Shown: positions 4,403 through 26,488, counted from the stretch's first letter. The stretch is 64,000 bases of DNA from Armatimonadota bacterium (GCA_022563855.1 JADFMN010000008.1:62001-126000); one strand, 5' to 3'. Numbers and translations: made by a program. Notes: a model not told the origin generated them from the sequence alone.

Positions 4403-4518
4403 CTCTATTTCCTATATTGCCTTTTGAACGGCGAATCCGCACGGTCGGCTATGATATGAAGGACGGCTAGCAACCAGTTTACGTTGTCCGGGCCTAGCGC
4501 ACAGAGGAGGAATTGCAA

Positions 4519-5073: not shown

Positions 5074-5157
5074 GACGCTCTGCTATTGCCTCGCCCCCCG
5101 CGCACGCGGTACATTGGACTGGCTTGGGCCGCAACGCGATCTGAGCGGAATCAAGCA

Positions 5158-5742
5158 ATGAAGTTTTTCGTCTTGTCAACGGGTGGACAGAAGTTCGGTC
5201 CAGCTGACATCCCTACTCTGAACAAGTGGATCACCGAGAAGCGCATCACGCCCGAAACGGACTTGGAGAACGCTGACACCAAGCAGATCGTCAAGGCTGG
5301 CACGGTTGCCGGACTGGTGTTCGGACCGACCGCGACCGGGCCGGGCGCGTCGATTATCAAAGACCCAGTGCCTGCGTCTCGTCCGACGTTGATGGACTCT
5401 CCCGGCGCTTCGCCTCAGAACCCCTATCAGGGCCAGCCACAGAACCCGTACCAAAACCCGCCGGCACCGGGAAGCTCCTATCCGAGACAGGGCGTGTCGC
5501 ACCTAGACGACGGTACGCCAGCCATGATCAAGAACGCATGGATTCTGATCATAGTGGGGTTCCTCTGCGCCCCACTTATCCTGTATCCGTTCGCGATCTA
5601 CCAAGCGAATCGGGCGAAGAGGATGAACAACCCGAACGCGCAGGCCCCACTCATTATCGCTTGGATTCTGCTAGGCCTCAATCTCGCAGTAGTGCTGTTC
5701 GTTGTCGTCTCCTTCGTCGTTGGAATGTCCCAAGGCTTCTAG
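5158..5742 (+). CDS. GYF_2-domain membrane protein with Pro/Asn-rich linker
   Basis: 194 residues, a paralogue of the preceding gene in its N-terminal domain (KFFVLSTGGQKFGPAD, then TLNKWITEKRIT). Residues of about 75-115 are a flexible PQNPYQGQPQNPYQNPP linker. Two transmembrane segments follow (ILIIVGFLCAPLILYPF and IIAWILLGLNLAVVLFVV) with a basic loop between them. A proline-rich linker next to a GYF-like domain suggests possible self-association or binding between the two paralogues; this is inference. ATG at 5158 is unambiguous. The gene ends 9 bp before the opposite-strand tRNA-Arg. Confidence 0.78.
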   Translation: MKFFVLSTGGQKFGPADIPTLNKWITEKRITPETDLENADTKQIVKAGTVAGLVFGPTATGPGASIIKDPVPASRPTLMDSPGASPQNPYQGQPQNPYQNPPAPGSSYPRQGVSHLDDGTPAMIKNAWILIIVGFLCAPLILYPFAIYQANRAKRMNNPNAQAPLIIAWILLGLNLAVVLFVVVSFVVGMSQGF

Positions 5743-5852: not shown

Positions 5853-7961
5853 TCACCGCGAGGGCGGCGGGTTCTTCCGCTGGCCGGGAACCGCAGCTCT
5901 TTCGCTGTACATCTTCCGGTACTGCAACAGCTTTTCCTCAAAATCCTGGCTCCATGCAGGATCCATCTCGGACAGCGGGACGTACTTGGTGTCCCGACCG
6001 AGATGATCTACCGATGCCCAGGTGTACGAGTAGCCGTGGCCGGGAAACACGAACTCCATCACCACCTGCTCTACTTCGACCTGCGCTAGCAGCGATGGGT
6101 CGGGAGCGGGCCATCCGATGTACTCGGAGCCCGCAATTTGGTTGGCCAGCATGGCCGTTGTGAGTCCCTGCTGCTGGTACGCCGAACCGGCAGCCATCTG
6201 CTTCGGGAACACCGCCTGGTGCGAGACGACGTACACGTTGATCAAGCTGCCAGGAGGCACGCCGCCAGCAAGAACATCTTGGGCATAGGTCGCTCCGACA
6301 GGCGCGCGCCGCCAGGCGAACTCTGTCGTTGGGGAGATTTCAGCCCTGCTTTCCTCGATGAACCCCATCCTGCCGAACATCATGCGCGTCGCATACTTGG
6401 CTGAGTCGCCCTTCAGCGAATCTATCGGAATGCGATGCCCTCCTTCTCTGGCCGCTTTACGCTCGCTCGGGGAAAGTCGAGAGTACAGGCGCAAGGCGTC
6501 CAGAAAACCAAGGAAGCCGGCCAAGATCGATGGCTCGCCGAGGCCGATGGCCGAGAGGGTCAGTGAGAGCTGCAGGGGCGGTTCTGACTCCGTCGATCCA
6601 ACAAGATCGGCTACCGCATCGAGCGACTTTCTGCCGATCTTCTCATACGATTCGATGAACCGTTCGATCGCGGCCCGGCTCACCCTTTCCTTTCTCGTCA
6701 AAAACCGGTATGTGGGCGCAACGGTCAACCAATCGTCTGACACCGACGACCTCAATTCCAAGTCGAGAACCGCTTTCGACGACCAGACCTGGCCCAAGGT
6801 TACCGCACCCTCTTGCAGGGCACGCACTTCAACTAACGCAGCGGAGTCGGGGAGCAGCGCGACGACGTCGACGTCCAACTCCAAGGCCGATTGCAGTATC
6901 CAGTCCGACGCGAGAACGGCGAGCGGATCGTTCTTAGTCGGAGTTGAGAAGACCTCCCGCACCTCTGGCGGCACCTCGGCCAGCAGACCGTCGGGGGACC
7001 CGCTGAACCATGAGAGCATGATATCTGAAGCCTTCTGCACCAGCGGTGAAACTTCATGCTGTGCTTCGAGAGCGGTCAGGGCAGGATCGGGAGGAGTTGT
7101 GATATCGTCAGCCTGAATCACAACGAACGCAATCCGGGTCAAAAAGAAGTCTCCTGGCAAACGAATCCGAACACCCAGGCGTTCTCGGTACCGTTGGAAC
7201 TCGACCAAAACAGCGTCGTGCGATGCGCCGTCCGGGCGAAACGGATCGACCAACGAGGAGTACATGTGCGCTTTCGGCAGTTGCTCGAACGCACCTGTGG
7301 ACTCTATCGCCTCGCGATGGATCGCGGTCTCTTGCAGGAACTGCTCGTAAGCGCGTACCCCACCGCTTGGCAGCGATCGCTGGCCGCCTTCTGGATTCGG
7401 CGAATACCGCACAACCCTCTCCTCATCGAGCCTGGCGAGCGTTTCCGGATCGAGCGAGGCCAGCACCCGCATCAAGTACCTGGCGCCAGGGCTAGTGCTC
7501 TCCATGAAACTCCAAAGCTGCCTGACGTTATCGGGGCTGCTGCCAGCCATCTGCATCTCGACCGATCTTGTAATGAGCTGCCGTGCGATCTCTGGCGTGT
7601 ATTCGCCCTCTACCGTGTTTTCTGCGAGGAACTTCTTGATGCCCCGCACCATTGCAGCCAAGCCTTCCTGCTCCTCAGCAAGCTCTTGTGCGCGCGTCCG
7701 GCCGAGGTAGCGCACGCCGCTCTTCACGCTCCATGTCGCGTTCAGCGTCTCGGCGATCTTTTCGAGCGCATCCTGCACCGGCACGTCGTCGAAGCGCAAG
7801 AGGAAGTAGTCCTTGTTGACGCTTCCGCTCGGCTCCATCCTCATCCCCAGCTCTTCGCCGAGCGCAGCGAGCACGACGCTAGAATGCGCGCATGGATGGA
7901 CGAACGTCACAGTCCGCGGCTGAACCGCGACCGTTGCACACAGGAGAATCGACGTCAACAT
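5853..7961 (-). CDS. P1: exported double-STN-module protein, family of unknown function
   Basis: 702 residues. A minimal signal sequence (MLTSILLCATVAVQ) is followed at residues 18-89 by an STN-like module: HSSVVLAALGEELGM, DYFLLRFDDVPVQDAL, then GVRYLGRT. A helical region leads to a second STN-like segment at about 344-417 (DWILQSALELDVDVVALL, then DDWLTVAP). After this come an R..R..R stretch, the family motif LRLYSRLSPSERKAAREGG (490-508) and a C-terminal beta-rich domain containing EFVFPGHGYSYTW. STN modules normally occur at the N-terminus of secretins and TonB receptors, but no secretin or barrel domain follows here. AAAGG lies 5 bp before the ATG. It is the last gene of the P5-P1 block, 100 bp after P2, its closest relative. 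Function is unknown. Confidence 0.85.
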   Translation of the reverse strand: MLTSILLCATVAVQPRTVTFVHPCAHSSVVLAALGEELGMRMEPSGSVNKDYFLLRFDDVPVQDALEKIAETLNATWSVKSGVRYLGRTRAQELAEEQEGLAAMVRGIKKFLAENTVEGEYTPEIARQLITRSVEMQMAGSSPDNVRQLWSFMESTSPGARYLMRVLASLDPETLARLDEERVVRYSPNPEGGQRSLPSGGVRAYEQFLQETAIHREAIESTGAFEQLPKAHMYSSLVDPFRPDGASHDAVLVEFQRYRERLGVRIRLPGDFFLTRIAFVVIQADDITTPPDPALTALEAQHEVSPLVQKASDIMLSWFSGSPDGLLAEVPPEVREVFSTPTKNDPLAVLASDWILQSALELDVDVVALLPDSAALVEVRALQEGAVTLGQVWSSKAVLDLELRSSVSDDWLTVAPTYRFLTRKERVSRAAIERFIESYEKIGRKSLDAVADLVGSTESEPPLQLSLTLSAIGLGEPSILAGFLGFLDALRLYSRLSPSERKAAREGGHRIPIDSLKGDSAKYATRMMFGRMGFIEESRAEISPTTEFAWRRAPVGATYAQDVLAGGVPPGSLINVYVVSHQAVFPKQMAAGSAYQQQGLTTAMLANQIAGSEYIGWPAPDPSLLAQVEVEQVVMEFVFPGHGYSYTWASVDHLGRDTKYVPLSEMDPAWSQDFEEKLLQYRKMYSERAAVPGQRKNPPPSR

Positions 7962-8061
7962 TTTTGCCTTTCACCTAACCTTTAATCGTACCTCTTGCTA
8001 ACCGTCTCGATCTATGCTTCGAGCCGGGCTCTGATTTCGGCGGGCTCAAAGGTACCCCAGT

Positions 8062-10173
8062 TCACCGCGAGGGCGGCGGGTTCTTCCGCTCGGCCCGCGC
8101 CTTCGCCATTTCGCCGTACATCTTGCGGCTCTGCTTCAACTTCTCGTCATACTCCTTCTTCCAATCAGGGTCCATATCTTGGAGCGAGGCGTACTTCGTG
8201 TCCCGACCGACGTGGTCTACCTTGGCATCGGCGTACACATAGCCGATGTCCGGGAATATGAACTCGATCACCAACTGCTCTACTTCAACGACGGCAAGGA
8301 GCGATGCGTCTGGGCCAGCGTAGCTGTTGTACTCGGCATCCGCGATTTGACCTGCTAACTGGCCCGCCGTAAGCCCGCTTCCGCGGTATTGCGAACCATC
8401 TTGCATCCGCTTCGGAAACACCGCCTGGTGCGTGAACACATGAACGATGATCGCGCTGCCACGCGGCACGCCAGCGGCGAGCGCGTCTTGAGCATTGATC
8501 CCTTCACCCGTCATGGGGCGCCCGAAGATATCATCTGTAGCGGATGGATTCGCTCGGAGTTCTTCGACAATGCTCTGCCTGCCGAACAGCAAGCGCGTCG
8601 CAAACTTCGATGCGTCGCCCTTCAGGGAATCGACCGCGATTCTATGCCCACTCTCCCTGGCCTCTTTGCGCGCGCTCGGAGGGAGCAGCGAGTACAGGCG
8701 CAAGGCGTCCAGATCACCGTAGTCGTTCAAGCCGGACAAGACGGACGATTCACCAAGGCCGATCGCCGCCAGCGCCAGCGAGAACATCAGGCTCAACTGC
8801 GAGTTCGCTTGGCCGACAAGATCGGCGACCGGATCGAGCGACTTGCTGCCGATCTTCTCATACGACTCGATGAACCGTTCGATCGCGACCCGGCTCAGCC
8901 TGTCCTTTCGCGTCAAAGACCTGTAGATCGGCTCGACCGTCAGCCAGCCGTCGGAGACCGACGACCTCATCGCGAAATCGGGAACAGCCGTCAGCGACCA
9001 GTACTGCCCCAAGGTCTCCGCGCCCTGCTGCATGACCATCAGCGGCACGAACGCGGCGAGATCGGGGAGCAGCGCGACCACGTTCAGGTTCAGCTCCTTG
9101 GCCGACTGCAAAATCCAGTCCGATCCGAGAACGGTCAGCGGGTCGTTCTCCGTCGGCTTTGAGAAAACTTCCTGCACCTCTGATGGCACCTTGACCAGCA
9201 GTCCGTCGGGCGAGCCGCTGAACCACGAGAACATCAGCTCGGAAGCCTTCTGCAACAGCGGCGAAATCTCCTGCTTCGATTCGAGGGCAGCCAATGCAGG
9301 GTCGGGCGGGATTGCGACCTCATTCGCCAAAATCGAAACGGTCGCGATTACGGAATAGTAGAGCCCTCCAGGCAATCGCAGCTGAACCATCAGGCGTTCT
9401 CGTCCACGCTGGAACTCGACGAATGCCGCATCGTGCGACCCGAGCATCGCCTTATACGGGCTGGTCAGCGAGGAGAAGTCACGAATCGTAGGCAGCTGCA
9501 TAAGCGCGCCGGTCGCTTCGATCGCCTCTCGGTGGATCGCGGTCTCTTGCAGGAACTGGTTATACGCACGAACTCCGCCCGCAGGCAATGGCCGCTGCCC
9601 GCCCGTCGGATTCGGCGCGTACCGCACAGCCCAACCCTCCTCGATGCTGGCGAGCACTTCTGGATCGAACGACGCGAGAACGCGCATCAAGAACCTGGTA
9701 CCGGGGCTCTTCGTCGAGAGGCTCCGTAGCTGCACGTTGAACTGAGCGTTGCCGCGATCCGACTGTAGTTCGATCGATCTCAATATGAGATCTCGAGCAA
9801 CCTCGGGCGTGTAATCGCCCTCTACCGGGTTGTCTGCGAGGAACTTCTCGACACCCCGCACCATGCCCATCAGAGCTTCCTTCTCCTCAGCCAGCTCCTG
9901 CGCGTGGGTGCGCCCAAGATAGCGCACGCCGCTCTTCTCAGTCCACGTCGCGTTCAGCGTCTCGGCGATCTTGTCAAGCGCGTCTTTCACCGGCACGGCG
10001 TCAAAACGTAAAAGGAAGTAGTCGTCGTTGACGCTGCCGCTCGGCTCGATCTTCATCCCCAGCTCTTCACCGAGCGCGGCGAGCACGACGCTAGAATGCG
10101 CGCATGGATGGACGAACGTCACAGTCCGCGGCTGAACCGCAACCGTTGCACACAGGAGAATTGAAGTAATCAT
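8062..10173 (-). CDS. P2: exported double-STN-module protein, closest paralogue of P1
   Basis: 703 residues, collinear with P1 throughout: signal MITSILLCATVAVQ, STN-1 at 18-89 (HSSVVLAALGEELGM, GVRYLGRTHAQEL), STN-2 at 343-414 (DWILQSAKELNLNVVALL, DGWLTVEP), LRLYSLLPPSARKEARESG at 491-509, C-terminal EFIFPDIGYVYADA, and a final RAERKNPPPSR that matches P1. The 3' end and about 30 bp beyond it are nearly identical in DNA to the end of P1, so P1 and P2 look like a recent tandem duplication. The ATG overlaps the P3 stop by 4 bases (ATGA). Probably periplasmic or cell-surface; function unknown. Confidence 0.85.
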   Translation of the reverse strand: MITSILLCATVAVQPRTVTFVHPCAHSSVVLAALGEELGMKIEPSGSVNDDYFLLRFDAVPVKDALDKIAETLNATWTEKSGVRYLGRTHAQELAEEKEALMGMVRGVEKFLADNPVEGDYTPEVARDLILRSIELQSDRGNAQFNVQLRSLSTKSPGTRFLMRVLASFDPEVLASIEEGWAVRYAPNPTGGQRPLPAGGVRAYNQFLQETAIHREAIEATGALMQLPTIRDFSSLTSPYKAMLGSHDAAFVEFQRGRERLMVQLRLPGGLYYSVIATVSILANEVAIPPDPALAALESKQEISPLLQKASELMFSWFSGSPDGLLVKVPSEVQEVFSKPTENDPLTVLGSDWILQSAKELNLNVVALLPDLAAFVPLMVMQQGAETLGQYWSLTAVPDFAMRSSVSDGWLTVEPIYRSLTRKDRLSRVAIERFIESYEKIGSKSLDPVADLVGQANSQLSLMFSLALAAIGLGESSVLSGLNDYGDLDALRLYSLLPPSARKEARESGHRIAVDSLKGDASKFATRLLFGRQSIVEELRANPSATDDIFGRPMTGEGINAQDALAAGVPRGSAIIVHVFTHQAVFPKRMQDGSQYRGSGLTAGQLAGQIADAEYNSYAGPDASLLAVVEVEQLVIEFIFPDIGYVYADAKVDHVGRDTKYASLQDMDPDWKKEYDEKLKQSRKMYGEMAKARAERKNPPPSR

Positions 10174-12146
10174 GATCGCCCTCCGCCGCGAGCCTTGTCG
10201 ATCTCTTCGAGCAGCCTCGACCTCACCTCGTCCGGGAGGTCGTTGATAGAGCCGAAGACCGAATCGCCTATGGGGTCTGCATACCGCCCGAAACTCGTAC
10301 CGCCTCCCCCCGGCCTTTCATACCCCAAGTAGACCGTCGCACCGTAGACTGGCGCCATCATCGAGTAATCGGCCATTGCCGACGATCCGCCCCGCCGCTC
10401 TGCGCTCACCATATTCATGGCGTAGCTGCGGACGTCCATGAACGTCAGCCAGGAGGATACGTCGCGATCGAACAGATTCAGTTGCAGGAACCCTTCGTCC
10501 CTAACGCTGATCGTCCACTTGTCGTCGACTGCGATGAGCGCCAGCGCCTCTTCGTATTCACGGAACGGCTGCCTCATCGCCATCGCGCCCCACTCATGCT
10601 CCTCCATGTAGCGGGACGTTTTCTTCCCCAGAGCCAGGACGAACCGGCTGGCGTCGGGCCTGCCCGTGAGAGTCACGCCCTCCGTTTTGGCGAGCCGACG
10701 CTCCTCTGGCGTCAGCAGGCCGTAGATGCGGAAGTTCTCTATGCCGTAGGTGGGAAGTCCTAGCCTGAGCTTGAGCGCCCGGCCCAGAAGGTGGTTCGCA
10801 ACGAACGCGGGATCGTCTTCGAGCGTCGTCGCGGCGAAGTCGGAGAAGACCTCGATCGGTATGGATCCCCTATCAACGGCGTGGCCGAACATGGCTCTGA
10901 ACGCCCGCCGGTCCATCCGCTTACGTCTGGCGGTGTAGGGCGCTTTCGGCCTCGCCATCAGCCACCCGTCGCCCAATTCGACTGTTACGGCTTGGTCGGC
11001 GATCATCACCGAAAGCAGCTGGGCGAGCGACGAGCCCTGGGCGATCTTCCCTTTCGCCAAAGCAAGAAATGCGGAGTCGGGCAGGTGGGCCACGAGGGAC
11101 ACGTGCATCTCCTCGGCAGCCTGGAGCAGCACGGCCCCAGGCGCGGAGAGCACGACGTCGGCGCCTTCGGAAGACAAGAGCGCTTCTTTCAGGACGCGGC
11201 TCTCTTGACCGAGGGTCGAAGGGGCCACCGACGCAAAAACGACGTCCTCCATTTTTGCAGGCGCATCGAGCTGGAGCACCCACCTAGGGATCGTGGTCTC
11301 GTCGGAGTACGAAAGCGAGTAGTAGCCTATTGTCTCCCACTTGTTGTCCGCGATGAACGATAGGTAGAAGGACGCCTTCGTATCGGAAGCGTGCACGCTG
11401 AGTTGGAGCCGCTCCGTCAAGATCGGAGAGTCGGAGGCGAACTTCAGATAGACTCCGATCGTGCGATCTCCCGACGCGATCCCGACTTCGCCGGCCTCGC
11501 GGGCCGTGACTTCCCACTCCTGTCTCATCTGTCGAAAGACCGCGTCGGCGCCGGGGGGCATGGGCTCGCCGTCTCCCATCACGGAGAAGATGAGCGGATA
11601 GCCGAGCGCCTTCACGACTTTATCGAGGTCGAGGAGCTTGATCAGCCGTACCATCGCGCGATACCCTGGCAACTGTCGGGAGATGGACCTGTGTCTCTCC
11701 CTGTCTGCGGCGGTGGCCAGTGGGCCGAAGTCCCTCGACTGGATCGCCAGCGATCTAGCGAGGGCGCTTGTGAGATCCGGGAACTCCATTCTTGCAACGG
11801 CCTTCTCGATCGCGGCCTTTCTCGCGTCGATCTCAATCTCGAAGTCGGCGATCTCCTGCGCGCGCGTCCGGCCGAGGTAGCGAACGCCGCTCTTCACCGT
11901 CCACGTCGCGTTGAGAGTCTCGGCGATCTTGTCGAGCGCGTCTTTCACCGGCACGTCGTCGAAGCGGACGAGGAAGTAATCTTGCTTCACCGAGCCGCTG
12001 GGCTTGATCTGCATCCCCAGCTCTTCGCCGAGCGCGGCGAGGACGACGCTGGAATGCGCGCACGAGTGTGTGAAAGTAACTGACTCGGGGACTTCGGCAT
12101 AGCTGAGTCCTCCGATTAGCAGAGCGGCTATAGTCGTGGTCATCAT
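10170..12146 (-). CDS. P3: exported double-STN-module protein, divergent body
   Basis: 658 residues. Signal MMTTTIAALLIGGLSYA. STN-1 (22-94) is almost identical to that of P1/P2/P4 (HSSVVLAALGEELGM, DALDKIAETLNATWTV, GVRYLGRT). After residue 100 the sequence diverges so far that only landmarks remain: STN-2 at 330-400 (AVLLQAAEEMHVSLVAHL, DGWLMARP), the R-rich stretch ARRKRMDRRAF, FRIYGLLTPEERRLAKTEG at 482-500, and a Gly/Ser-rich region near the C-terminus. It ends in an acidic/basic helix (LPDEVRSRLLEEIDKARG). It overlaps P4 and P2 by 4 bases each, so the three are coupled in one transcript. Function unknown. Confidence 0.82.
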   Translation of the reverse strand: MMTTTIAALLIGGLSYAEVPESVTFTHSCAHSSVVLAALGEELGMQIKPSGSVKQDYFLVRFDDVPVKDALDKIAETLNATWTVKSGVRYLGRTRAQEIADFEIEIDARKAAIEKAVARMEFPDLTSALARSLAIQSRDFGPLATAADRERHRSISRQLPGYRAMVRLIKLLDLDKVVKALGYPLIFSVMGDGEPMPPGADAVFRQMRQEWEVTAREAGEVGIASGDRTIGVYLKFASDSPILTERLQLSVHASDTKASFYLSFIADNKWETIGYYSLSYSDETTIPRWVLQLDAPAKMEDVVFASVAPSTLGQESRVLKEALLSSEGADVVLSAPGAVLLQAAEEMHVSLVAHLPDSAFLALAKGKIAQGSSLAQLLSVMIADQAVTVELGDGWLMARPKAPYTARRKRMDRRAFRAMFGHAVDRGSIPIEVFSDFAATTLEDDPAFVANHLLGRALKLRLGLPTYGIENFRIYGLLTPEERRLAKTEGVTLTGRPDASRFVLALGKKTSRYMEEHEWGAMAMRQPFREYEEALALIAVDDKWTISVRDEGFLQLNLFDRDVSSWLTFMDVRSYAMNMVSAERRGGSSAMADYSMMAPVYGATVYLGYERPGGGGTSFGRYADPIGDSVFGSINDLPDEVRSRLLEEIDKARGGGRS

Positions 12147-14137
12147 CGTTGTTCTTTACCTACCTTCATGCCGGCGGCGGCCAGCTCGCGCTGCACAGCC
12201 GCAGGCAGCTTGTTCAATTCTACGTGCTTGTCGTCGAAAAGCCGCTCGTCGACGATCGTCGAGACGGTCGCGTACCCTTGCCCTGGCATATGCAGGCTGA
12301 CCTCCACCCTCGCCATCTGGTGCCAGAGCGCCTTCGTGTAGTCGAGGTTAGGAAAGCCCGGTAGTTTGCCCCGCTTTGCCCACATCACGAACTCCTCTAT
12401 CGAGGCCGGCCGCGCCGCGATCAACGTCCGCGTCTCAATCGGCTGCATGGGGCTGAGCTTCATCTCGCGCACGACGGTTACGCGCACTCTCGCGTCCCTG
12501 GGGATCAAACCGCCCACGGCCAGCCCGACGTAGGCGCCGCCGGGAGTCTGAGCACGATAACCCCAGTCGTCCACCGGCTTGTACTCCTTCGCGAGCCGCA
12601 TGTCTCCGCTGAGGAATATCTCGCCCAATAGATCAGCCAGCTTTTTCCGAGCGCTCCTGATTTCAACGGTCGCTCCTCCGTCCCACGCGGCCTTTTTCTG
12701 TGCCGCGTCGAGGAGCCCATAAACGGCCAGCGCTCGGGACGACGCGCCGAATGCGTTGAACCAGCGGTCGGCGTCCATCGGCATGACGACCTTCGCGACG
12801 CGGTCAGCGGACACGAGCGCCCTCCTGTTCTCCTGTCCGGCAGCGAACGCCGCAGCATCGTCTACGAGAACTCTCTTCTTGCGCAGTACAGCGCGGATAT
12901 ACCGCTGCGTCGCTTTGCGGTCGAAACGGTTCGCGCGGGCTGCGCTCGGGGCGGAGGGTACGGCGGTCAGCGTCCTTCCTGTAATGACAACATCCATGCC
13001 TTGTGCGCCGTAGCCCAGTATCACCGACACTGAAGTCTGCAGGTCTGGCCTCCTCAGCGCGACGCCTAACGCAGAGTCCGGCAGGACGACGACGCCGTTC
13101 ATGCCCTTTGTTCTCAAAAGCTCCAGCCACGCGTCGCCGATCAGCGGGCCTAGCAACCCGTTGCTCTCTAAATCGAGCATGTATTCGACGAGCGGTGCGG
13201 GAGGATGGAGCGGTTCTTTGCCCTCCGACTCTCTCTTCGCGATCAGATAGTCGAGGATCATCTTGCCGTCTTCGCCGAACTCGAAAGGATCGGCCATGTC
13301 GCCCCAGACCGGCTCTTCGTGCATGCGTGAGTACCGGTTGTTGGGGATTCTCAGGGTGTCTGTCGTGGACCAGCCTTCGCCCCCATAGATAAGGCTGTAG
13401 CTGGCGCCAGGCCCCTGTCGGGAGACTTGCAGCTCCATCGCCGTTACCGGAGAAGTCCTTTTCGACCAGGCGTTGACCGCCCCAGTGGTCTGCCCCGCCT
13501 GGTCGTACGTCGCCTTTGCGAGGGAAGCTAGCGTGTTGCACTCCAAAGTCAAGCCTCTGAACGCGTCCCTCCAAGCGGGCACCTCCCTGCTCCGCAGGAC
13601 GTGCCTCCTTTGATCTTTGATGCTGAGCAAAGTGCCCTTCTGCAGCGACCTGACAAGCTTGTCCAGCGCCCGCTTGCCTGGCAGCAGAGGGACGTTCTTC
13701 GGCTGCTCGATGACAGTGACGCCTCGCTCAACTGTTTGGCGGCCCGGGGCTGGCAGCATCGCCCTTGCGAGATCGATCGTGAAATCTGGCGGGACGATCG
13801 CGCTCTTGAAGTACTTCCCGTGCTCTCTCAGAAACGGCTCCGCATCTCGCCTTTCGTCCTCTAGCTCCTGTGCGTGGGTGCGCCCAAGATAGCGCACGCC
13901 GCTCTTTTCGCTCCACGTCGCGTTGAGCGTCTCCGCGATCTTGTCGAGCGCGTCATTCACCGGCACGTCGTCGAAGCGCACGAGGAAGTAGTCCTTGTTG
14001 ACGGAACCGCTGGGCTTTATCGTCATCCCCAGCTCTTCGCCGAGCGCAGCGAGCACCACGGACGAGTGAGCAGCCGGGTGCGTAAACGTGACGGTTTGCA
14101 ACTGGGCCAGCGCGAACAAAGCAATGGCCGCAATCAT
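12143..14137 (-). CDS. P4: exported double-STN-module protein
   Basis: 664 residues. Signal MIAAIALFALAQ. STN-1 at 15-87 is again near-identical to P1-P3 (AAHSSVVLAALGEELGM, RYLGRTHAQELEDER). STN-2 lies at about 325-395 (LLRTKGMNGVVVLPDSAL, then TGRTLTAVP), followed by AARANRFDRKATQRYI and LAVYGLLDAAQKKAAWDGG. The C-terminal domain has VEVSLHMPGQGYATV and LNKLPAAVQREL. The landmark order matches the other paralogues although sequence between landmarks is hardly alignable. The start overlaps the P5 stop (ATGA). No catalytic motif is recognised. Probably secreted or periplasmic. Confidence 0.82.
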   Translation of the reverse strand: MIAAIALFALAQLQTVTFTHPAAHSSVVLAALGEELGMTIKPSGSVNKDYFLVRFDDVPVNDALDKIAETLNATWSEKSGVRYLGRTHAQELEDERRDAEPFLREHGKYFKSAIVPPDFTIDLARAMLPAPGRQTVERGVTVIEQPKNVPLLPGKRALDKLVRSLQKGTLLSIKDQRRHVLRSREVPAWRDAFRGLTLECNTLASLAKATYDQAGQTTGAVNAWSKRTSPVTAMELQVSRQGPGASYSLIYGGEGWSTTDTLRIPNNRYSRMHEEPVWGDMADPFEFGEDGKMILDYLIAKRESEGKEPLHPPAPLVEYMLDLESNGLLGPLIGDAWLELLRTKGMNGVVVLPDSALGVALRRPDLQTSVSVILGYGAQGMDVVITGRTLTAVPSAPSAARANRFDRKATQRYIRAVLRKKRVLVDDAAAFAAGQENRRALVSADRVAKVVMPMDADRWFNAFGASSRALAVYGLLDAAQKKAAWDGGATVEIRSARKKLADLLGEIFLSGDMRLAKEYKPVDDWGYRAQTPGGAYVGLAVGGLIPRDARVRVTVVREMKLSPMQPIETRTLIAARPASIEEFVMWAKRGKLPGFPNLDYTKALWHQMARVEVSLHMPGQGYATVSTIVDERLFDDKHVELNKLPAAVQRELAAAGMKVGKEQR

Positions 14138-16272: not shown

Positions 16273-16292
16273 CTCACGTCCCTCTACCCGAC

Positions 16293-16301
16293 AGTATAAC
16301 A
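16293..16301 (-). promoter_or_regulatory. Extended -10 element before P5
   Basis: On the minus strand this reads TGTTATACT, an extended -10 (TGn + TATACT), about 20 bp before the P5 start codon. No convincing -35 is present at 17 bp. It would drive the whole P5-P1 block with a very short leader. Confidence 0.4.
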
Positions 16302-16403
16302 ACTCCCGCGAGGCATCGGGCCGTTATCACGGCGTCATCGTGGTCAAGCGTCCGTCAGCACGAGCCTTAGGACCGACGGCTGACGAAGACACAATCTCCA
16401 GAG

Positions 16404-17450
16404 ATGCTGATAGCTCTCGCCGCCATTGCCTTGGCGCAGGACGACGTATTTGACGGGTGGCCGGACTCGCTGTCCGTTCCTTTAGTCAGCAGGGAGAGCC
16501 ACCTGCGCAACGTGCGCCAGGTGACGTTCGGCGGGCAGAACGCCGAGGCGTACTGGAACCTGGACGGCACCAAGATCGTGTGGCAGTCCACCCAGCCGGG
16601 ATTCCCAGACGAGCAGATTTTCGTCATGGACGCGGACGGCAGCAACAAGACCCTGGTCAGCACCGGCCTCGGGCGCTGCACGTGCGGCTACTTTTCGCCG
16701 GATGGCCAGTACGTGTACTTCAGCTCGAGCCACCGAACGATGAAGGGCAAGCAGCCGCCTGTCGACCACAGCCTCGGCTACGTTTGGATGGTCAACCCGG
16801 CGTTCGACCTGTACCGCCGCGACGTCGGTACGTGGAAACTCGAATCGGTTTTGAGCCTCCCCGGATACCTGGCCGAGACGACGCTGGCGCCTGGCGGCCA
16901 GTACATGACGTTCACCAGCGATTTCGAAGGCGATCTAGACATCTACCGCGCCGACTTGAACGGGTTTGGAGTCAAGAAGCTGACCGACGAGTTCGGCTAC
17001 GACGGCGGCCCGTTCGTCAGTTGGGACGGAAAGACGATCGTCTTCCGCCGCAGCCCGCTGGACATGACCGCGGAGGAGCGCGGCGACTACTCCCGGCTGC
17101 TCGCCGACCACATGGTTCGCCCAGGCGAAATGGAGGTCTGGATCATGAACGCGGACGGCTCGAACAAGCGCCAGATCACCCACCTCGGCGGAGCTAACTT
17201 CGCGCCGTTCCTACACCCCGACGGCGAGACGATCATCTTCGGCTCGAACCACACCGACCCGCGCGGGCGCGAGTTCGAGCTGTACACGATCAACGTCGAC
17301 GGCACAGGACTGGAGCGGATCACGTTTATCGACGAGTTCGACGGGTTCCCGATGTTCAGCCGCGACGGCAAGAAGCTCATCTGGGCCAGCAACCGGTACA
17401 ACAAAGTCCAGGGCGAGACGAACATCTTCGTCGCCGACTGGGTTGACTAG
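16404..17450 (+). CDS. Exported TolB-like PD40 beta-propeller protein
   Basis: 348 residues with a short signal (MLIALAAIALAQ). The mature protein is built of PD40/WD40-like blades: AYWNLDGTKIVWQS, IFVMDADGSNKTLV, YFSPDGQYVYFSS, DIYRADLNGFGVKKL, VWIMNADGSNKRQIT, FLHPDGETIIFGSN, LYTINVDGTGLERIT, MFSRDGKKLIWASN. This resembles TolB C-terminal propellers and related periplasmic scaffolds, but the TolB N-terminal domain is absent. It sits between the P5-P1 and P8-P6 blocks on the opposite strand and overlaps the P6 stop (shared CTAG). A role as binding partner of the STN proteins is possible from location only. Confidence 0.85.
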   Translation: MLIALAAIALAQDDVFDGWPDSLSVPLVSRESHLRNVRQVTFGGQNAEAYWNLDGTKIVWQSTQPGFPDEQIFVMDADGSNKTLVSTGLGRCTCGYFSPDGQYVYFSSSHRTMKGKQPPVDHSLGYVWMVNPAFDLYRRDVGTWKLESVLSLPGYLAETTLAPGGQYMTFTSDFEGDLDIYRADLNGFGVKKLTDEFGYDGGPFVSWDGKTIVFRRSPLDMTAEERGDYSRLLADHMVRPGEMEVWIMNADGSNKRQITHLGGANFAPFLHPDGETIIFGSNHTDPRGREFELYTINVDGTGLERITFIDEFDGFPMFSRDGKKLIWASNRYNKVQGETNIFVADWVD

Positions 17451-19447: not shown

Positions 19448-19453
19448 GGTTTC

Positions 19454-21571
19454 CTACTGCCTAGTCAATCTTATACGACGATCTGCCGACGGAAAACGTA
19501 ACGCATCATCGTTCTTCATAAGGGTGTCGGCCAGAAGAGCCCATTGCACGGCAGACAGTGGCGGCGGGTCTTGCAGCTTGCGCAGTTCGACTTCTAGCGC
19601 GGCCTGATACTGATCGCGGAAAGACTTCGGCAAGTCATTGAGCGGAACCATCTCGTCACCCTCGTAGATCGCCGGGACGAAGTACGACGTGAGGTGAACC
19701 TCGCTCCCGCCGGAGATCACGCTCATCAGAATTCCCTGCTCCTCGACGATCCGATACAAATACGGCTCATCTGACAGCGACAATCCCGCGCGCTGGGCGG
19801 CCGCGCCACGACCGGCGAGGCGACCGATCGACGTCGCGCTGGCCTGTAGAAAGCCAAAATTCGTGTCGTGCCGAACGTAGAACGGAGTGCTCATCCGGAC
19901 GGTCTCCACTCGAATCGAAATCTCGCTCGACGCGAGATCGCGCAGCCACCTAGACTCCTGTCGGGATCGGTCGTAGGCACCGTCGTTCCAGCCGCTAATG
20001 CGCCTCGTGAACGCCCCGGCTCCACTGCCCGGGCCATCGCCGAGCCTGTGGCCGTAGGCGGAGGCGACGAGCACCAACATCTCTTCGTCTAAATCGACCA
20101 GTTTGAAAACTGCGCCACCAGTTCTCGCCCTGCTTCGTTCGCCTTCGTTCATCTTCGCATAGAACGCCAACAGGTCGAGCGACCCGTAGTCCGTCGTGCT
20201 GATAGTCCGGCTGAGCATTGTCATGAACGATAAAATACTGGTGGCCCGTATGCTGCTGCAACTGGCGTAAAGGTCGGCCAGCGGGGATAGAGTGTCCCTG
20301 CTTCGATTGCGGAACGCCTTGAGCGAGTTCGCAAACTCCCGCCGACCGACGTGCCCTTGCCTCGCCAGCAGAGGAGTCATCGGCGTGACAACCACTGCAT
20401 CGGCCAATTCGACTTGCTGATAAAGCATCAGAAACATCAAGTCTAGGGCGTCCTCAAGCGAGATTTCCTTATAGCGAGACAGGCGAATGTCAAGGGTCCA
20501 GTCGTACGGTACGGCTACAAAGCTCTTACCGCTCTGGTCGGCAGCCTGCTTGACGATTTCAGAAATCGCAAGCTCCAGGAAGTCGTGCTCCTTCGGGTTC
20601 AGATACACTTCGAGCAACTCCTTTGACGGCTGATTGGGAGACTTTGTTAGCGGAGTCGTAGGAGGACGAAGCCAAGTTCGCTCCATCGCGATCGCGCTGA
20701 GATTGAGCAGCCCGTCCAGGCCATCTGGCCACTGCTTCGAACCGTAGTAGAGGTCTGAGGGGGCCTCGAAAGATAGGCTGACATCGACGTGTCTCCGTTC
20801 GTCGATTTTTGGCGAGGTCAGCCTGACCCTCAGTCCAGTTCTTGTCAGCATGATGGTGACTCGAACGTCTTGCACGTTTGTTGAAACTCGCCCCATGTCC
20901 AGCAGCGGGTCGACGGTCGCGGCTCGCAGTTCGAGCAAATCCACCAAACCGTTTTGATCCTGGATGAACTCACCGAGGACTGCTCGCGCCGAACTGGGAA
21001 GTTGGCGCTTGCCGAAACCGCCTGCCACAGAGAACACAATCGGCACACGGAGCGGCAGCTTCGCGAGGAACTCTGCATCCAACTCTCTGACAAGCCGCGC
21101 AACTGCGCGGCTGCCGGGCAGCTTCGCAGTCATCGTCTCGAGCACGCTGACAGAAATTCTGGTTCCGGTGGAGTCGTACAGCGTCTTGAAGAAACGGATC
21201 GCCTTCTCTCCGACCAGCCGGTCCGGAACTTCTAGCTCCTCCTGTATGGCCCGGATGAACCGCGCCAGCACTTCGAGGTCCGTGCGTCCGTCCTCCAGCT
21301 CCTGCGCGTGGCTGCGGTGCAGGATCAGCTCGCCGTCTTTCTCGACCCAAGAGGCATTGAGCGCGTCGGCGAGGAGCTCCTTCGCTCTCTCTGCTGTCGT
21401 GTGGCGAAAGGCGACGATGACGTAATCCCGCGACATCGTGCCGTCGGCCTTCAGCTCTTCCCCAAACGCCTCCGCCATCGCCGCAACGACCCGCGCAACC
21501 GGCGCGCCCTTGTGGTCGAAGTCAAACGTCTTCTGTTGAACCGCCAGCGAGAGAAGAATGCAAGTCAGCAT
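19454..21571 (-). CDS. P7: exported double-STN-module protein, closest paralogue of P6
   Basis: 705 residues, collinear with P6: signal MLTCILLSLAVQ, STN-1 at 14-86 (KTFDFDHKGAPVARVVAAM, ELILHRSHAQELEDGR), STN-2 at about 335-404 (IVKQAADQSGKSFVAVPY, EISLEDALDLMFLM), then LLAFYAKMNEGERSRARTGG. Beyond the common LRKLQDPP it has an extra tail of about 34 residues (ALLADTLMKNDDALRFPSA, then DRRIRLTRQ) also found in P8. P6 and P7 remain highly similar at the DNA level over the 3' part, implying fairly recent duplication or gene conversion. Spacing of 6 bp on each side within the block indicates cotranscription. Confidence 0.83.
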   Translation of the reverse strand: MLTCILLSLAVQQKTFDFDHKGAPVARVVAAMAEAFGEELKADGTMSRDYVIVAFRHTTAERAKELLADALNASWVEKDGELILHRSHAQELEDGRTDLEVLARFIRAIQEELEVPDRLVGEKAIRFFKTLYDSTGTRISVSVLETMTAKLPGSRAVARLVRELDAEFLAKLPLRVPIVFSVAGGFGKRQLPSSARAVLGEFIQDQNGLVDLLELRAATVDPLLDMGRVSTNVQDVRVTIMLTRTGLRVRLTSPKIDERRHVDVSLSFEAPSDLYYGSKQWPDGLDGLLNLSAIAMERTWLRPPTTPLTKSPNQPSKELLEVYLNPKEHDFLELAISEIVKQAADQSGKSFVAVPYDWTLDIRLSRYKEISLEDALDLMFLMLYQQVELADAVVVTPMTPLLARQGHVGRREFANSLKAFRNRSRDTLSPLADLYASCSSIRATSILSFMTMLSRTISTTDYGSLDLLAFYAKMNEGERSRARTGGAVFKLVDLDEEMLVLVASAYGHRLGDGPGSGAGAFTRRISGWNDGAYDRSRQESRWLRDLASSEISIRVETVRMSTPFYVRHDTNFGFLQASATSIGRLAGRGAAAQRAGLSLSDEPYLYRIVEEQGILMSVISGGSEVHLTSYFVPAIYEGDEMVPLNDLPKSFRDQYQAALEVELRKLQDPPPLSAVQWALLADTLMKNDDALRFPSADRRIRLTRQ

Positions 21572-21577
21572 GGTGAT

Positions 21578-23716
21578 TTACTGCCTCACCGATCTTATAC
21601 GACGATCTGCCAGCGAAGAACGTAACGCATCGCCGTTCTTCATAGCCGCGTCAGCTAGAAGAGCGCGCGGATCGCTCGGCAAACCCGGCGGATCCTGCAT
21701 CATCTTCTTCATCTCTTCGATCTGAGCACGGAACGGCTCGTAGATCGAAGGCGGGACTTCCCCGAACCCGAAAGTCTCATAACCTTCCTTGACGGGAACC
21801 TCCCAGTAGCTCGAGACCAGATGCCAGCGGCCGCCAGCTCTGATCTTGATTTCGAGAACGATCCTCTCCTTGACCAAGAACTGATTCATCGTAGCCCAAC
21901 CACCGTTGCCCAGCTCTTTCGACGCGACCAAAGCGAACAGCGAATTGCTGAAGATTGCCTGCAGATACTGCCGCTGGCCTTGCATAGATTGGCCGACGAG
22001 CACCGGCTCTCTGCGCAGTTCGACGAGCAGCCCGTCTGGCAGCCTGTTCTGCGCGACCATCCGGCGCACGGCAACAATCTTATCGCGCCTCTCCCCCATT
22101 CCGGGCCCAACTTCCAGACTGATTTCGCCAGGGCGGCCGACGTTGCCAACGTCCATCAACGTGAAGTACCAGTCCCGCTGCGAATCCGCAGACAACGACG
22201 CCCAGTCCACGAAGACGCCACCGTCGCGAGCCCTGGATTTCTGAGAATCGCTCAACGACCCGTACAGCCGAACCGGAACCTGGTAGTTCGACGCATACGG
22301 CCGCAAATACTCGATCCTGGTTACGAGCGACGATACATCTCGCCGGTCGTAGGCAACCGCCTCCCGGCTCGACCCTGCGATCAGCCTAGCGTACGCCTCG
22401 AAGTCGTCTCCGTGCTTCAGGCCGTCCCTGACCATCGCAGAGTACAGGTCGCGCGGAACGCGAGCCCTTCTCGTCTTCGCCGGATCTGCGGGTCTGACCA
22501 GCAGCACCTCGTCCCGCTCCTCGATTAGGCTGTCACCCCGTCCGATGACGAGATCGAACACCCAGCCCAGCTGCCCCTCCATGTTCCGTATCAGCGCCCG
22601 GAAGTTCGTCCAGTGTTTATCCTGCAGCAGCGCGACCACGCTCTTGCCGAGCGATTCGCCCGCCTGCACCGTGATCGGGTGCGAGCCGAGATGCAGGGGC
22701 TCGAAATCCTTGGAAGTGAAGAACTTCGCAACGACCTCTGGCACGTCCTGCGTCAGCTTGCCCGGCCCCAATCGGCCTGGAGCGCGGAGAGGCAAAAAGC
22801 CTAGAGTGAGTTCAGGCAAAACGCAAGGCGCCCACCACTCTTCGTGCGTGCTCGGCTTGTACGCATACGGCGGTGTCTCCGGACTGCTGATTCTCACCGT
22901 ACGAGCGATCCTCGGTTCGCCCCACCGCATCTGAATCGTCGGCACGAGGCCCTGCGGTTGCCGCCGTATCGTGAGCACACCGGTGAAGGCACCTGAATCC
23001 CAGTCGCCCGGCCCGATCTGCCTCCACAACTGGACTCTGCTGACATCGACCCCGCGGCTTTGCATCGCCGCAGCGTACAGCCTGTCTTCCCTTTCATAAT
23101 CCCCGGCGAAAGTCGACGTCTGGCGCGGCAAGCGCGGGTCGGCCGACGCGTTGTCGAACGGCAAGTAGACGGTCACTCCCTGCGGCATGTCGAAGAACGG
23201 GCTCGGGTCGAACTCGCGCAACAGCCTGACCGCCATCCTGTGCCCTGGCGTGAGCTTTGCGATTTCGTGCGGCGGGTAATTAAATCTCCGAATCCGGGCC
23301 TGATCTGCTGACGCGTCCTGAAGCATGAACGCGAGGCTGTCGGCTCCGTCAGCGTTGAGCGGCGGCGGGACTTCGGTCGATCGGTACTTCTGCGCCCATT
23401 CAGCAAGCCTTCTGTCGCTGGACTCCTTCTCTTGGCGAAGCTCGGTCGCCTTCGACCTCGTCAGCCGCAACACACCCTTGTCCAACTGCCACTCACCCTC
23501 GACGACGTGCGCGATCCACTCCATCGCCTGCTCTTGCGTCGCATCCGCGAGGTGGACGACCAGGATGTCGTCCCTGAGGTTTCCGTCGGCGCGCATCTCG
23601 ACGCCGATACCCTCGCCGAGCGCCTTAACGATCACCGGCGCAGGCGCTGCGCGGTGGTCGAAATCGAACGTCTTCTGTTGGGCGATAACATAGCAGGCGG
23701 CAAGCGCGGCAAGCAT
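21578..23716 (-). CDS. P8: exported double-STN-module protein, first gene of the three-gene block
   Basis: 712 residues. Signal MLAALAACYVIAQ. STN-1 at 15-87 (KTFDFDHRAAPAPVIVKAL, DDILVVHLADATQEQAM, GVLRLTRSKATEL). STN-2 at about 338-410 (ITVQAGESLGKSVVALLQ, RDEVLLVRP), then KTRRARVPRDLY and VRLYGSLSDSQKSRARDGG. The C-terminal domain (IVLEIKIRAGGRWHLVSSY) is followed by MMQDPPGLPSD and the tail ALLADAAMKNGDALRSSLAD shared with P7. GGAG lies 5 bp before the ATG. It heads the P8-P7-P6 block. Its signal and STN-1 resemble P6/P7, while the body is divergent. Function unknown. Confidence 0.83.
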   Translation of the reverse strand: MLAALAACYVIAQQKTFDFDHRAAPAPVIVKALGEGIGVEMRADGNLRDDILVVHLADATQEQAMEWIAHVVEGEWQLDKGVLRLTRSKATELRQEKESSDRRLAEWAQKYRSTEVPPPLNADGADSLAFMLQDASADQARIRRFNYPPHEIAKLTPGHRMAVRLLREFDPSPFFDMPQGVTVYLPFDNASADPRLPRQTSTFAGDYEREDRLYAAAMQSRGVDVSRVQLWRQIGPGDWDSGAFTGVLTIRRQPQGLVPTIQMRWGEPRIARTVRISSPETPPYAYKPSTHEEWWAPCVLPELTLGFLPLRAPGRLGPGKLTQDVPEVVAKFFTSKDFEPLHLGSHPITVQAGESLGKSVVALLQDKHWTNFRALIRNMEGQLGWVFDLVIGRGDSLIEERDEVLLVRPADPAKTRRARVPRDLYSAMVRDGLKHGDDFEAYARLIAGSSREAVAYDRRDVSSLVTRIEYLRPYASNYQVPVRLYGSLSDSQKSRARDGGVFVDWASLSADSQRDWYFTLMDVGNVGRPGEISLEVGPGMGERRDKIVAVRRMVAQNRLPDGLLVELRREPVLVGQSMQGQRQYLQAIFSNSLFALVASKELGNGGWATMNQFLVKERIVLEIKIRAGGRWHLVSSYWEVPVKEGYETFGFGEVPPSIYEPFRAQIEEMKKMMQDPPGLPSDPRALLADAAMKNGDALRSSLADRRIRSVRQ

Positions 23717-23827
23717 CGTTCTCCCGGGTCTCTACCTACCATTCTAACAGAGTTGTCCAGTATCAACGACTGGGTGAGCCCGACGAGCGGTGCCAGTCTC
23801 TACAGGGTGGCGACTTTCAAGTACGCC

Positions 23828-24274
23828 CTAGTCGATGGCCGGTTCCAGAGTCTCACCGACCGGATCGACCATTTCGCCGGGGATCGTGCCAGTGCTTTCG
23901 ACCGGCTGTGGAGCCTGAGTCGGAGGCGCGGCGCTCGAAAAAAGGAGCGCTGCAAAAACCCCGAGCACCATCAGCAGCACAAACGCCGCTATTGCGATGG
24001 CGTAGACGTTGCGGTTCTTGCTCCGCACCTGCTCCATGCCTTGGTCCTGCCGCAGCGCGGGGGCTCGCTCCTTGCGAATCTGGGCGAGAATCCCCTCGAT
24101 GCGCTCTGGCAGCACGTTCAAGCCCTCTGCCAAATCCTTGACAGTCGGCGACGTGGCGCGCCCCTCCAACTCCTGCTGGCGCATCTCCTCGTCTTCCCGG
24201 AATCGCAGGATGACCTCATCGACCTCATCGGCCGTCAACCTCTGTCCAGGATCTTCTCGCAGGCCCTCGTCCAT
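23828..24274 (-). CDS. Single-pass membrane protein with N-terminal HTH-like segment
   Basis: 148 residues from ATG 24274, with GGGA about 6 bp upstream; a TTG 12 bp earlier is less likely. Residues 1-70 are charged and helical, and contain TVKDLAEGLNVLPERIEGIL, which looks like a helix-turn-helix. After a basic stretch (RQDQGMEQVRSKNR) comes one transmembrane helix (YAIAIAAFVLLMVLGVFAAL) and a short Pro-rich outer segment. The topology (cytoplasmic helical domain, one membrane pass, small outer tail) resembles anti-sigma or membrane-bound regulators, but no family is recognised. It lies between P8 and P9 on their strand and could regulate them; this is inference from position. Confidence 0.6.
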   Translation of the reverse strand: MDEGLREDPGQRLTADEVDEVILRFREDEEMRQQELEGRATSPTVKDLAEGLNVLPERIEGILAQIRKERAPALRQDQGMEQVRSKNRNVYAIAIAAFVLLMVLGVFAALLFSSAAPPTQAPQPVESTGTIPGEMVDPVGETLEPAID

Positions 24275-24344
24275 CGCCGTTCCCAATTATACGCCTTGCA
24301 CTGGAAGCCGGTTGCCGCGTGATCTTGTTCCTAGTTGTCCCAAT

Positions 24345-24397
24345 GGTTTAGGTCAAACGGTATTGAATCCCACGCCTTCGCTCGCCCTAAACCGTTT
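24345..24397. repeat. Short inverted and direct repeats downstream of P9
   Basis: GGTTTAGG (24345-24352) is the inverse of CCTAAACC (24386-24393), and AAACGG (24355-24360) of CCGTTT (24392-24397). The string TTTAGGTCAAACGGTATT resembles TTTAGGTTCAAAAAGGGTATT at 26564-26584, upstream of P9. They could be a weak terminator or element edges. Confidence 0.35.
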
Positions 24398-24418
24398 CTA
24401 CTCACTGGCGACTGCAGG

Positions 24419-26488
24419 TCAGTTCCGAAGTTCCGATGACTCTACACGTGCAGTGTCAGATCGTCTTCCTTTATCTCGCAACGCCTGTAGGGCGCGCCGA
24501 AACTTCGCCAGCCACGATACTGGTAGCTGATCCAGGCTGAGTCTTTCAGGATTGTCCGCTGTGAGTTCAACGGTCGAAATCCATGTATGTGTACCGACTG
24601 GGGTCTCGAAACTCACCTCTACTCTAAGCGCTCTTTCAACCCGAAACTTCGCGCTAGCGATCTTATTTTCCTCGTCCACGCGATTGCTTTTCTCAGCCGT
24701 CAAGAAGTATTCCGCCCAAGTTTCTGGATCAATCAGCTCTTGATCGCCAATTAGCGGAGAAAACATATGGACCGATGGGACAGCGCTGGCTCGAACTTGC
24801 ACTAGCACGTCGAGTAGCGTCGATTTCGTAATATCGAACGGCAAGAAATCCAGATACGTGTAGCTCTCCTGTCGACGTAACGGATCGAACCTTCCTATAC
24901 CGTGCCACCAAGCGTTCCAAAGTATTACACCTCGTACACTGGCGTGAAATGGGTTACCCAAACTCTTGAAGGGAACCGTCACTCCTTGAGGCGTCAGCGA
25001 CATTTGTTTGGCTTCGGATGACAAGCTCTGCCATGCAAACAATGCTGATAGCGAAGCACTAGAGACGTGCTCTGGACCGTGGACGAAGAACACAAGGTCC
25101 ACGATGGATGGGTCGTAAGCCGATCCTGGCCGCCTGACTAGCGGAGGGATGCGCTGCAGATCGAGCACTTTTGTCGCTCTATTGTTCCGCACGTAATCTG
25201 CGATCGCCTTGCGCGGAAACGCTAGCTGATATTGCGGCGGGCGGGCGGGGCTGCCTTTGATCAGACCCTCAGCAGTTTCTTCAAGGTCGAGCAACGTCTC
25301 GATCCAGTCAATCCCGCTTTTTAGGTCGATGACTCCCTCTGTAACAATGTCAGGTTTGTCAAGAAGCGCGAGACCTAGGGCATCGAGAAGGTCGTTCGAG
25401 AGACGTGCTACCAGCGGCAGGTTCAACTCGTCCGACATGGCCAGCAAGAGATCGCTCACATCAAGCGCAAGAGGCTCGCTTCTTGGCATCGAAGATAGCA
25501 AATCCCAAAGGTATGTGCTTGGCCCAGACTCACGAATGCCTAGCTTGGCAAAGTCACCGGCTATTTTTCTCGAAGCCTTTGACTGAGGAATCGTGACGTT
25601 CTTGATCGATCTCTGTACCTGACCTGGTGTCGGCAGCCAGACTTTGCTGGCGTCATAGAAGTTAACGACCCTTTTCCCTGACTCGTCAAAGCCGACAAGC
25701 GACATCGTAATGTAGTCCCAATAGGATGTCACTTCCAGGAATACCTTATCGACCGGCGTGGAAGGCAAGTCCTTGATCCCGACCCCGAACGACAACGAAG
25801 AACGCATGTCCCAAGCACCGTTACGCTTTAATGCATGCAAGAGCCTTGGCCGAAGCGCTAGAATCATCTGCTTTGCTCGGGCAAGCTCAGGCAGCCTGTG
25901 CGTGCCGTGCACACCGTCAGCTGTAAATACCCAACGCTCGTCTAATGGAATCGCTGAAAGAAGCTCTATCCCCAAGGCGTGCCAAATGCGCGGCATAACC
26001 TGCTGACGAGGAAATAACGTACTGTTCCAAGGATACAACTGGGAATCTTCACCGCCCTCGAACGCAGCAACCAACATGCTCCTCGCCCACTCAGTGATTC
26101 GCTCGTCGCTGACAGGATCAGGCGGCACGTTTCTCGTCATTTCTTTGCGCAGCAGCAACTTTCGGTAATCGTAGAACCGCTGTAACTCTTCGTCAATCTG
26201 CTCTCTACTTCGAAATAGCTCCCAACCCCTTTTGTTCTTTCTCCAAGAGGCATCCAGTCCCCTAGCCGACAGTTCGCGGAACTCCTCAAACGTCACGCCG
26301 AGGACGTTGAAGATAAACGGCTCTTCCGCGATGGACGAGTGCGCACTTATTTCAACTGCGAACAGCTCCCCGAGACGTTCGACCATGACCTCTCCGATCG
26401 CTGCTCTGAGGCGCACATCGACCTTCTTGGCGACCTCGGCATGCGCCTGAAGACAGATTGAGGACAAAAGTGCGATAGCCAACATCAT
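24419..26488 (-). CDS. P9: most divergent member of the double-STN family
   Basis: About 689 residues from ATG 26488, which follows AAGG at 6-bp spacing; ATGs at 26494 and 26485 are alternatives. The signal MMLAIALLSSICLQAHA is the most conventional of the family. The STN-1 equivalent (VDVRLRAAIGEVMVERL, FIFNVLGVTFEEFREL, WELFRSREQIDEEL) keeps only the pattern. The STN-2 equivalent lies at about 338-409 (LLLAMSDELNLPLVARL, IDLKSGIDWIETLL). The LFAWQSLSSEAKQMSLTPQG segment matches the LxxYxxL..G landmark, and the C-terminal VEVSFETPVGTHTWIS and LDQLPVSWLAKF match P4/P5. Base composition looks clearly more A+T-rich than P1-P8. It is divergent from acnA. Function unknown. Confidence 0.72.
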   Translation of the reverse strand: MMLAIALLSSICLQAHAEVAKKVDVRLRAAIGEVMVERLGELFAVEISAHSSIAEEPFIFNVLGVTFEEFRELSARGLDASWRKNKRGWELFRSREQIDEELQRFYDYRKLLLRKEMTRNVPPDPVSDERITEWARSMLVAAFEGGEDSQLYPWNSTLFPRQQVMPRIWHALGIELLSAIPLDERWVFTADGVHGTHRLPELARAKQMILALRPRLLHALKRNGAWDMRSSLSFGVGIKDLPSTPVDKVFLEVTSYWDYITMSLVGFDESGKRVVNFYDASKVWLPTPGQVQRSIKNVTIPQSKASRKIAGDFAKLGIRESGPSTYLWDLLSSMPRSEPLALDVSDLLLAMSDELNLPLVARLSNDLLDALGLALLDKPDIVTEGVIDLKSGIDWIETLLDLEETAEGLIKGSPARPPQYQLAFPRKAIADYVRNNRATKVLDLQRIPPLVRRPGSAYDPSIVDLVFFVHGPEHVSSASLSALFAWQSLSSEAKQMSLTPQGVTVPFKSLGNPFHASVRGVILWNAWWHGIGRFDPLRRQESYTYLDFLPFDITKSTLLDVLVQVRASAVPSVHMFSPLIGDQELIDPETWAEYFLTAEKSNRVDEENKIASAKFRVERALRVEVSFETPVGTHTWISTVELTADNPERLSLDQLPVSWLAKFRRALQALRDKGRRSDTARVESSELRN

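Follow-up and report, generated by a model that had tools for sequence, protein, structure and literature searches.

Nine homologous minus-strand genes at positions 5853-26485 (26488 when first annotated) of the window, the whole 64,000-nucleotide stretch analysed, encode an undescribed family of predicted exported proteins of Armatimonadota. In some lineages of this family, the front module, of a docking type, is near-identical between proteins, whereas almost no similarity is left in the other 550-600 residues. The nine open reading frames comprise 658-722 codons, and all are linked to each other by BLASTP or phmmer far above chance, the weakest link being that of P9 (phmmer E 1.3e-8 to P6). 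Apart from the two close pairs P1/P2 and P6/P7 (Table 1), most pairs are ~23-32% identical over their alignable parts. Searches of Pfam, NCBIfam, PHROG and PADLOC revealed no family that covers these proteins, and a literature search found no description of them. These results confirm two statements of a first-pass annotation made from the sequence alone, which had placed nine related minus-strand genes here and could not match them to any described system.

Table 1. Genes of the array and STN modules located within them (positions counted from the first nucleotide of the window)
Feature	Position	Strand	Properties
P1	5853..7961	-	702 aa; predicted exported twin-STN family protein; 65-66% identical to P2
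P2	8062..10173	-	703 aa; AlphaFold pLDDT 86.1, pTM 0.85
P3	10170..12146	-	658 aa; ATGA overlap of its start with the P4 stop
P4	12143..14137	-	664 aa; ATGA overlap of its start with the P5 stop
P5	14134..16302	-	722 aa from TTG; 712 aa from ATG at 16272
P6	17447..19447	-	666 aa; 59% identical to P7
P7	19454..21571	-	705 aa
P8	21578..23716	-	712 aa
P9	24419..26485	-	688 aa; most divergent member; AlphaFold pLDDT 74.2, pTM 0.73, element order as in P2
P1 constant N0/STN module	7686..7922	-	residues 14-92; DNA edges and amino acid identity to P2-P4
P2 constant N0/STN module	9898..10134	-	residues 14-92; model, Foldseek and profile match
P2 degenerate second STN module	8920..9156	-	residues 340-418; model and profile match
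P3 constant N0/STN module	11856..12092	-	module identity and DNA edges
P4 constant N0/STN module	13868..14104	-	module identity and DNA edges

The genes had been described as a tandem set that fills 20 kb. All nine are present, but the array is not strictly uninterrupted and consists of three blocks, P1-P5, P6-P8 and P9. P5 and P6 are separated by a plus-strand gene for a PD40 β-propeller protein (16404-17450), and a small minus-strand gene at 23828-24286, which encodes a membrane protein, separates P8 from P9. P5, P4, P3 and P2 follow each other with successive 4-bp ATGA overlaps, with P1 located ~100 bp further on, and P8, P7 and P6 are separated by gaps of 6 bp. These overlaps and short gaps imply co-expression of the array genes.

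Some additional features were noted in and around the array. The 3′ end of P6 and that of the PD40/TolB-like gene, whose product is likewise a predicted exported protein, overlap by 4 bp. The product of 23828-24286 is a single-pass membrane protein of 152 aa with an N-terminal helix-turn-helix-like part and a weak NCBIfam anti-σ match (E 6.7e-6, 26 bits compared with a cut-off of 100). P7 and P8 carry an extra C-terminal tail (ALLADxxMKNxDALR...ADRRIR..RQ; 19454-19560 and 21578-21690, minus strand), which is absent from P6. Immediately downstream of the array, the plus strand (4513-5742) encodes a tandem pair of GYF_2-like proteins that contain hydrophobic segments.

Inspection of the N-termini suggests that the array proteins are exported, as had been proposed initially. 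Their signal peptides are short (e.g., MLTSILLCATVAVQ), lack charge in the N-region, and resemble the likewise minimal signal peptide of the PD40 gene within the array (MLIALAAIALAQ). No transmembrane stretch or second strongly hydrophobic span was found beyond the signal peptide.

STN/N0 domains bind partner proteins in secretins and TonB transducers, and the partners of STN include FecR. An AlphaFold2 model of P2, built on 19 sequences from the window and related loci, shows the N0/STN order β-α-β-(h)-β-α-β-β at residues 17-87. Foldseek ranked PilQ N0 first for this module (probability 1.00) and also matched MxiD and InvG N0; in addition, it listed the anti-σ factor structure 4m0n (probability 0.82). 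When module 1 was compared by hhalign with the secretins encoded in the same genome, it matched their STN domains (Prob 96.6, E 5.5e-10). The Pfam STN profile (PF07660) itself gave no match in the nine proteins at E ≤ 10, nor in 42 family members at E ≤ 1. A second, degenerate STN occupies residues ~340-418: based on an 87-sequence alignment, it matched the same own-genome secretin domains (Prob 82, E 1.1e-5) as well as module 1 (Prob 90, E 1.5e-6). The shallower 47-sequence alignment gave no significant match of module 2 to STN, and the first strand of this module is lost in the models of P2 and P9. Both STN-like modules of the first-pass annotation were thus recovered, the first by profile and Foldseek and the second by profile.

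The same annotation had proposed a common fold, with unrelated predictions for P5, P8 or P9 named as a possible refutation. The P9 model, although of lower confidence, shows the element order of P2, in support of this proposal. Also in agreement with the earlier reading, none of the nine proteins continues into a secretin domain (Pfam) or a barrel, and neither model contains a barrel. Module 1 therefore shares its fold and sequence pattern with the STN/secretin N0 domain (PF07660; PilQ N0 4ar0, MxiD/InvG N0), but here the domain is duplicated and heads a soluble protein of about 700 aa without a secretin domain or barrel behind it.

The second STN is present as claimed, but it is not a stand-alone module: it forms part of a larger unit that has been duplicated within the protein. 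Comparison of the N-terminal half (14-335) with the C-terminal half (336-695) gave a match over 178 columns (Prob 95, E 4e-8, score 60.7), compared with scores of at most 13.0 for 60 column-shuffled profiles and 13.4 for a reversed profile; the E-values for halves and modules refer to single comparisons. The halves already matched with the 47-sequence alignment (score 37). The match spans the STN module and the helical region (helical versus helical, E 5e-6), and the β regions of the two halves showed no match by sequence. The proteins are built from two copies of a unit of STN module plus helical region, each followed by a small β region.

For the fold of the body, Foldseek found no credible match in the PDB or among the viral models of BFVD. 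This bears on the idea that the family could consist of exported enzymes, such as hydrolases, with divergent specificity. The large size and predicted export of the proteins would suit such a role, and solitary copies elsewhere adjoin assorted metabolic genes. Yet only four columns are near-invariant within the order (W77, D371, L86 and R428), and of these D371 and R428 are not retained beyond the order; a conserved catalytic set is thus not apparent. Since Pfam and NCBIfam also gave no enzyme family match, we consider an enzymatic function very improbable.

The main feature of the family, which the first-pass annotation had missed, is the uneven conservation of its members. The N0 modules of P1-P4 (codons ~14-92) share 82-88% amino acid identity, whereas the bodies, the P1/P2 pair apart, are 16-19% identical, which corresponds to the family background. 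At equal body identity, the N0 identity in 1571 cross-genome pairs is 0.25 ± 0.07. Three members elsewhere in this genome (C12a, C12b and C2s) contain the same module at an identity of 0.59-0.70, as do G001, L033 and L034. In the DNA, similarity is confined to a sharp-edged block of ~230 bp from codon ~14 to codon ~92-97, beyond which it drops to the random level in either direction; where P3 or P4 is compared, this applies even to the signal peptides. A constant front combined with a diverged body is what one would expect if a recognition repertoire were diversifying rapidly. The diversified surfaces postulated at first sight are hence found in the bodies, but not in the first STN module, which is near-constant in P1-P4: the diversity is concentrated outside it.

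Both recombination and selection are indicated in the constant module. The body tree rejects a clade of P1-P4 (AU p 0.005) and a clade of the three G001 copies (p 0.034); for the module, whose tree is short, the alternatives tested were not significantly rejected (p 0.11-0.115, with 0.115 for the species-like grouping). All four close pairs of this genome show less synonymous divergence in the module than in the body (p 0.046, 0.018, 5e-9 and 5e-4), most clearly C12a/b (pS about 0.2 in the module versus 0.64 in the body, with a sharp edge), which argues for an involvement of recombination. Averaged over alignable pairs, dN/dS is 0.07-0.13 for the module versus 0.30-0.38 for the bodies; being below 1, these averages do not demonstrate positive selection. 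For P1-P4 alone, very fast evolution of the bodies could mimic recombination.

A similar result was obtained at a syntenic locus of two related species (L037/L038). Here, 11 neighboring genes show a median identity of 90% and the module 87%, compared with 33% for the body. At 0.26, the module pS is below the 0.61 of the flanking genes over the corresponding codons (p 1e-7), which rules out a general drop in synonymous divergence at 5′ ends. A paralogue of the L037 genome was also rejected as the source of a swapped body, because within that genome the syntenic gene is still the one most similar to the L038 protein (39%).

This pattern does not hold throughout. In most very close species pairs the bodies are 93-98% identical, indicating that body replacement is episodic. 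In distant syntenic pairs, module and body are mostly both at ~20-35% identity and the neighbors at ~45-70%. A universally constant module can be dismissed on these grounds, since at larger distances the module has diverged about as much as the body; strong constancy was found in a single group of lineages and, beyond it, in a single syntenic pair. It is safe to state that the family genes often evolve faster than their neighbors and that some lineages preserve or homogenize the first module.

The first-pass annotation had raised the question of whether the cluster is lineage-specific. Genome-wide and phylum-wide searches showed that the family is confined neither to this locus nor to one lineage. 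This genome contains about 20 copies, and the related contigs belong to Fimbriimonadaceae and Fimbriimonadia within the Armatimonadota. Profile matches occur in 215 of 291 Armatimonadota genomes, including nearly all genomes of the order, there with low E-values, and nearly all Fimbriimonadales genomes searched harbor several copies. Outside the order, nine genomes were examined that encode relatives of 600-850 aa matching both halves. Arrays of 3-7 members are present at other loci as well. A few relatives lack any match, e.g., G009 with an estimated completeness of 100%, so the family appears to be dispensable. One contig from a genome of the same genus (L022 of G001) carries shared genes identical to those of Fimbriimonadaceae bacterium CRAIB_MAG79 (L035). 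In both, a family gene (2565-4523 in L022, 6147-8105 in L035) is split into two open reading frames, the N0 module followed by the body, possibly representing a pseudogene or a sequencing frameshift.

Alternatively, the proteins could be accessory or structural components of the envelope, whose STN units assemble into a periplasmic scaffold, either among themselves or together with secretins or type IV pili, the divergence being mostly due to relaxed constraint. The STN fold is an assembly domain of secretins and PilQ, the genome encodes three secretins, the gene spacing suggests co-transcription, and dN/dS is below 1. Nevertheless, we regard such a role as unlikely: copy number varies from 0 to 20 among related genomes, the bodies diverge faster than their neighbors at the same locus, and in the loci examined family members are not linked to secretin genes, the three secretins being encoded elsewhere than in the array.

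In the loci examined, no conserved neighbor or partner gene was found beyond synteny, and the known STN partners TonB_C and T2SSC (GspC) were not detected in the genome. One syntenic set of solitary members (L044, L049 and L056) adjoins an ECF σ factor gene; these loci also contain a fast-evolving gene without Pfam match, and two of the three have a PMT-like glycosyltransferase gene upstream. This σ factor gene, the weak anti-σ-like protein between P8 and P9, the Foldseek hit to 4m0n and the known binding of STN to FecR would be compatible with ligand-sensing transducers that signal through STN contact to an anti-σ factor, comparable to the FecR route but without a barrel. An N-terminal exported STN module is indeed common to the array proteins and to TonB-dependent transducers of the FecA type, but the former lack both the plug and the 22-strand barrel. 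Moreover, the genome shows no TonB_C, its single FecR-domain protein resides in a 1057-aa open frame, and most family members have no σ or anti-σ neighbor. We therefore judge a function in transmembrane signaling to be decidedly unlikely.

A constant N-terminal part, a variable remainder and recombination between them are also known from polymorphic toxin systems (PMC3482391), and the array could by this resemblance encode antibacterial toxins or effectors consisting of a constant trafficking module and a variable effector part. However, the models of P2 and P9 predict one common fold over the whole length instead of differing C-terminal toxin domains, the 4-bp overlaps from P5 to P2 leave no room for immunity genes, and no toxin or defence family was matched. 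Of all explanations considered, this is the least probable.

We tentatively favor a combination of a constant docking module with a diversified, probably non-enzymatic binding body, a reading in which docking, binding and the ligands are all deduced indirectly, and to which we give slightly less than even weight. The negative results for conserved neighbors and for the STN partners TonB_C and T2SSC, the averaged dN/dS below 1, and the small number of lineages with a strongly constant module all count against it. The first STN module would serve as a constant docking adaptor to a shared envelope partner, which might be a secretin-type or other STN-binding protein or a like module, and the bodies would together provide a varied repertoire of binding proteins, probably without catalytic activity. 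Variety would arise from tandem duplication and fast divergence of the bodies, with recombination keeping or re-exchanging the 230-bp adaptor while the bodies differ. Of the secreted recognition proteins with a shared fold suggested by the first-pass annotation, predicted export, fold and diversified bodies are thereby substantiated, but recognition continues to be an inference. A more far-reaching version is doubtful in our view: a phylum-wide envelope or extracellular recognition repertoire diversified by recombination, with N0/STN as an interchangeable adaptor and whole bodies of 550 residues exchanged, including between species at one locus.

The array belongs to a family of predicted exported proteins that is large, present in multiple copies and so far uncharacterised, from a phylum about which little is known. 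In this family, a docking domain of secretion machineries is reused outside any secretin or receptor. The docking hypothesis predicts that the modules of P1-P4 bind one and the same partner and that their bodies bind different things. If true, this would be a novel way for bacteria to diversify their recognition proteins.
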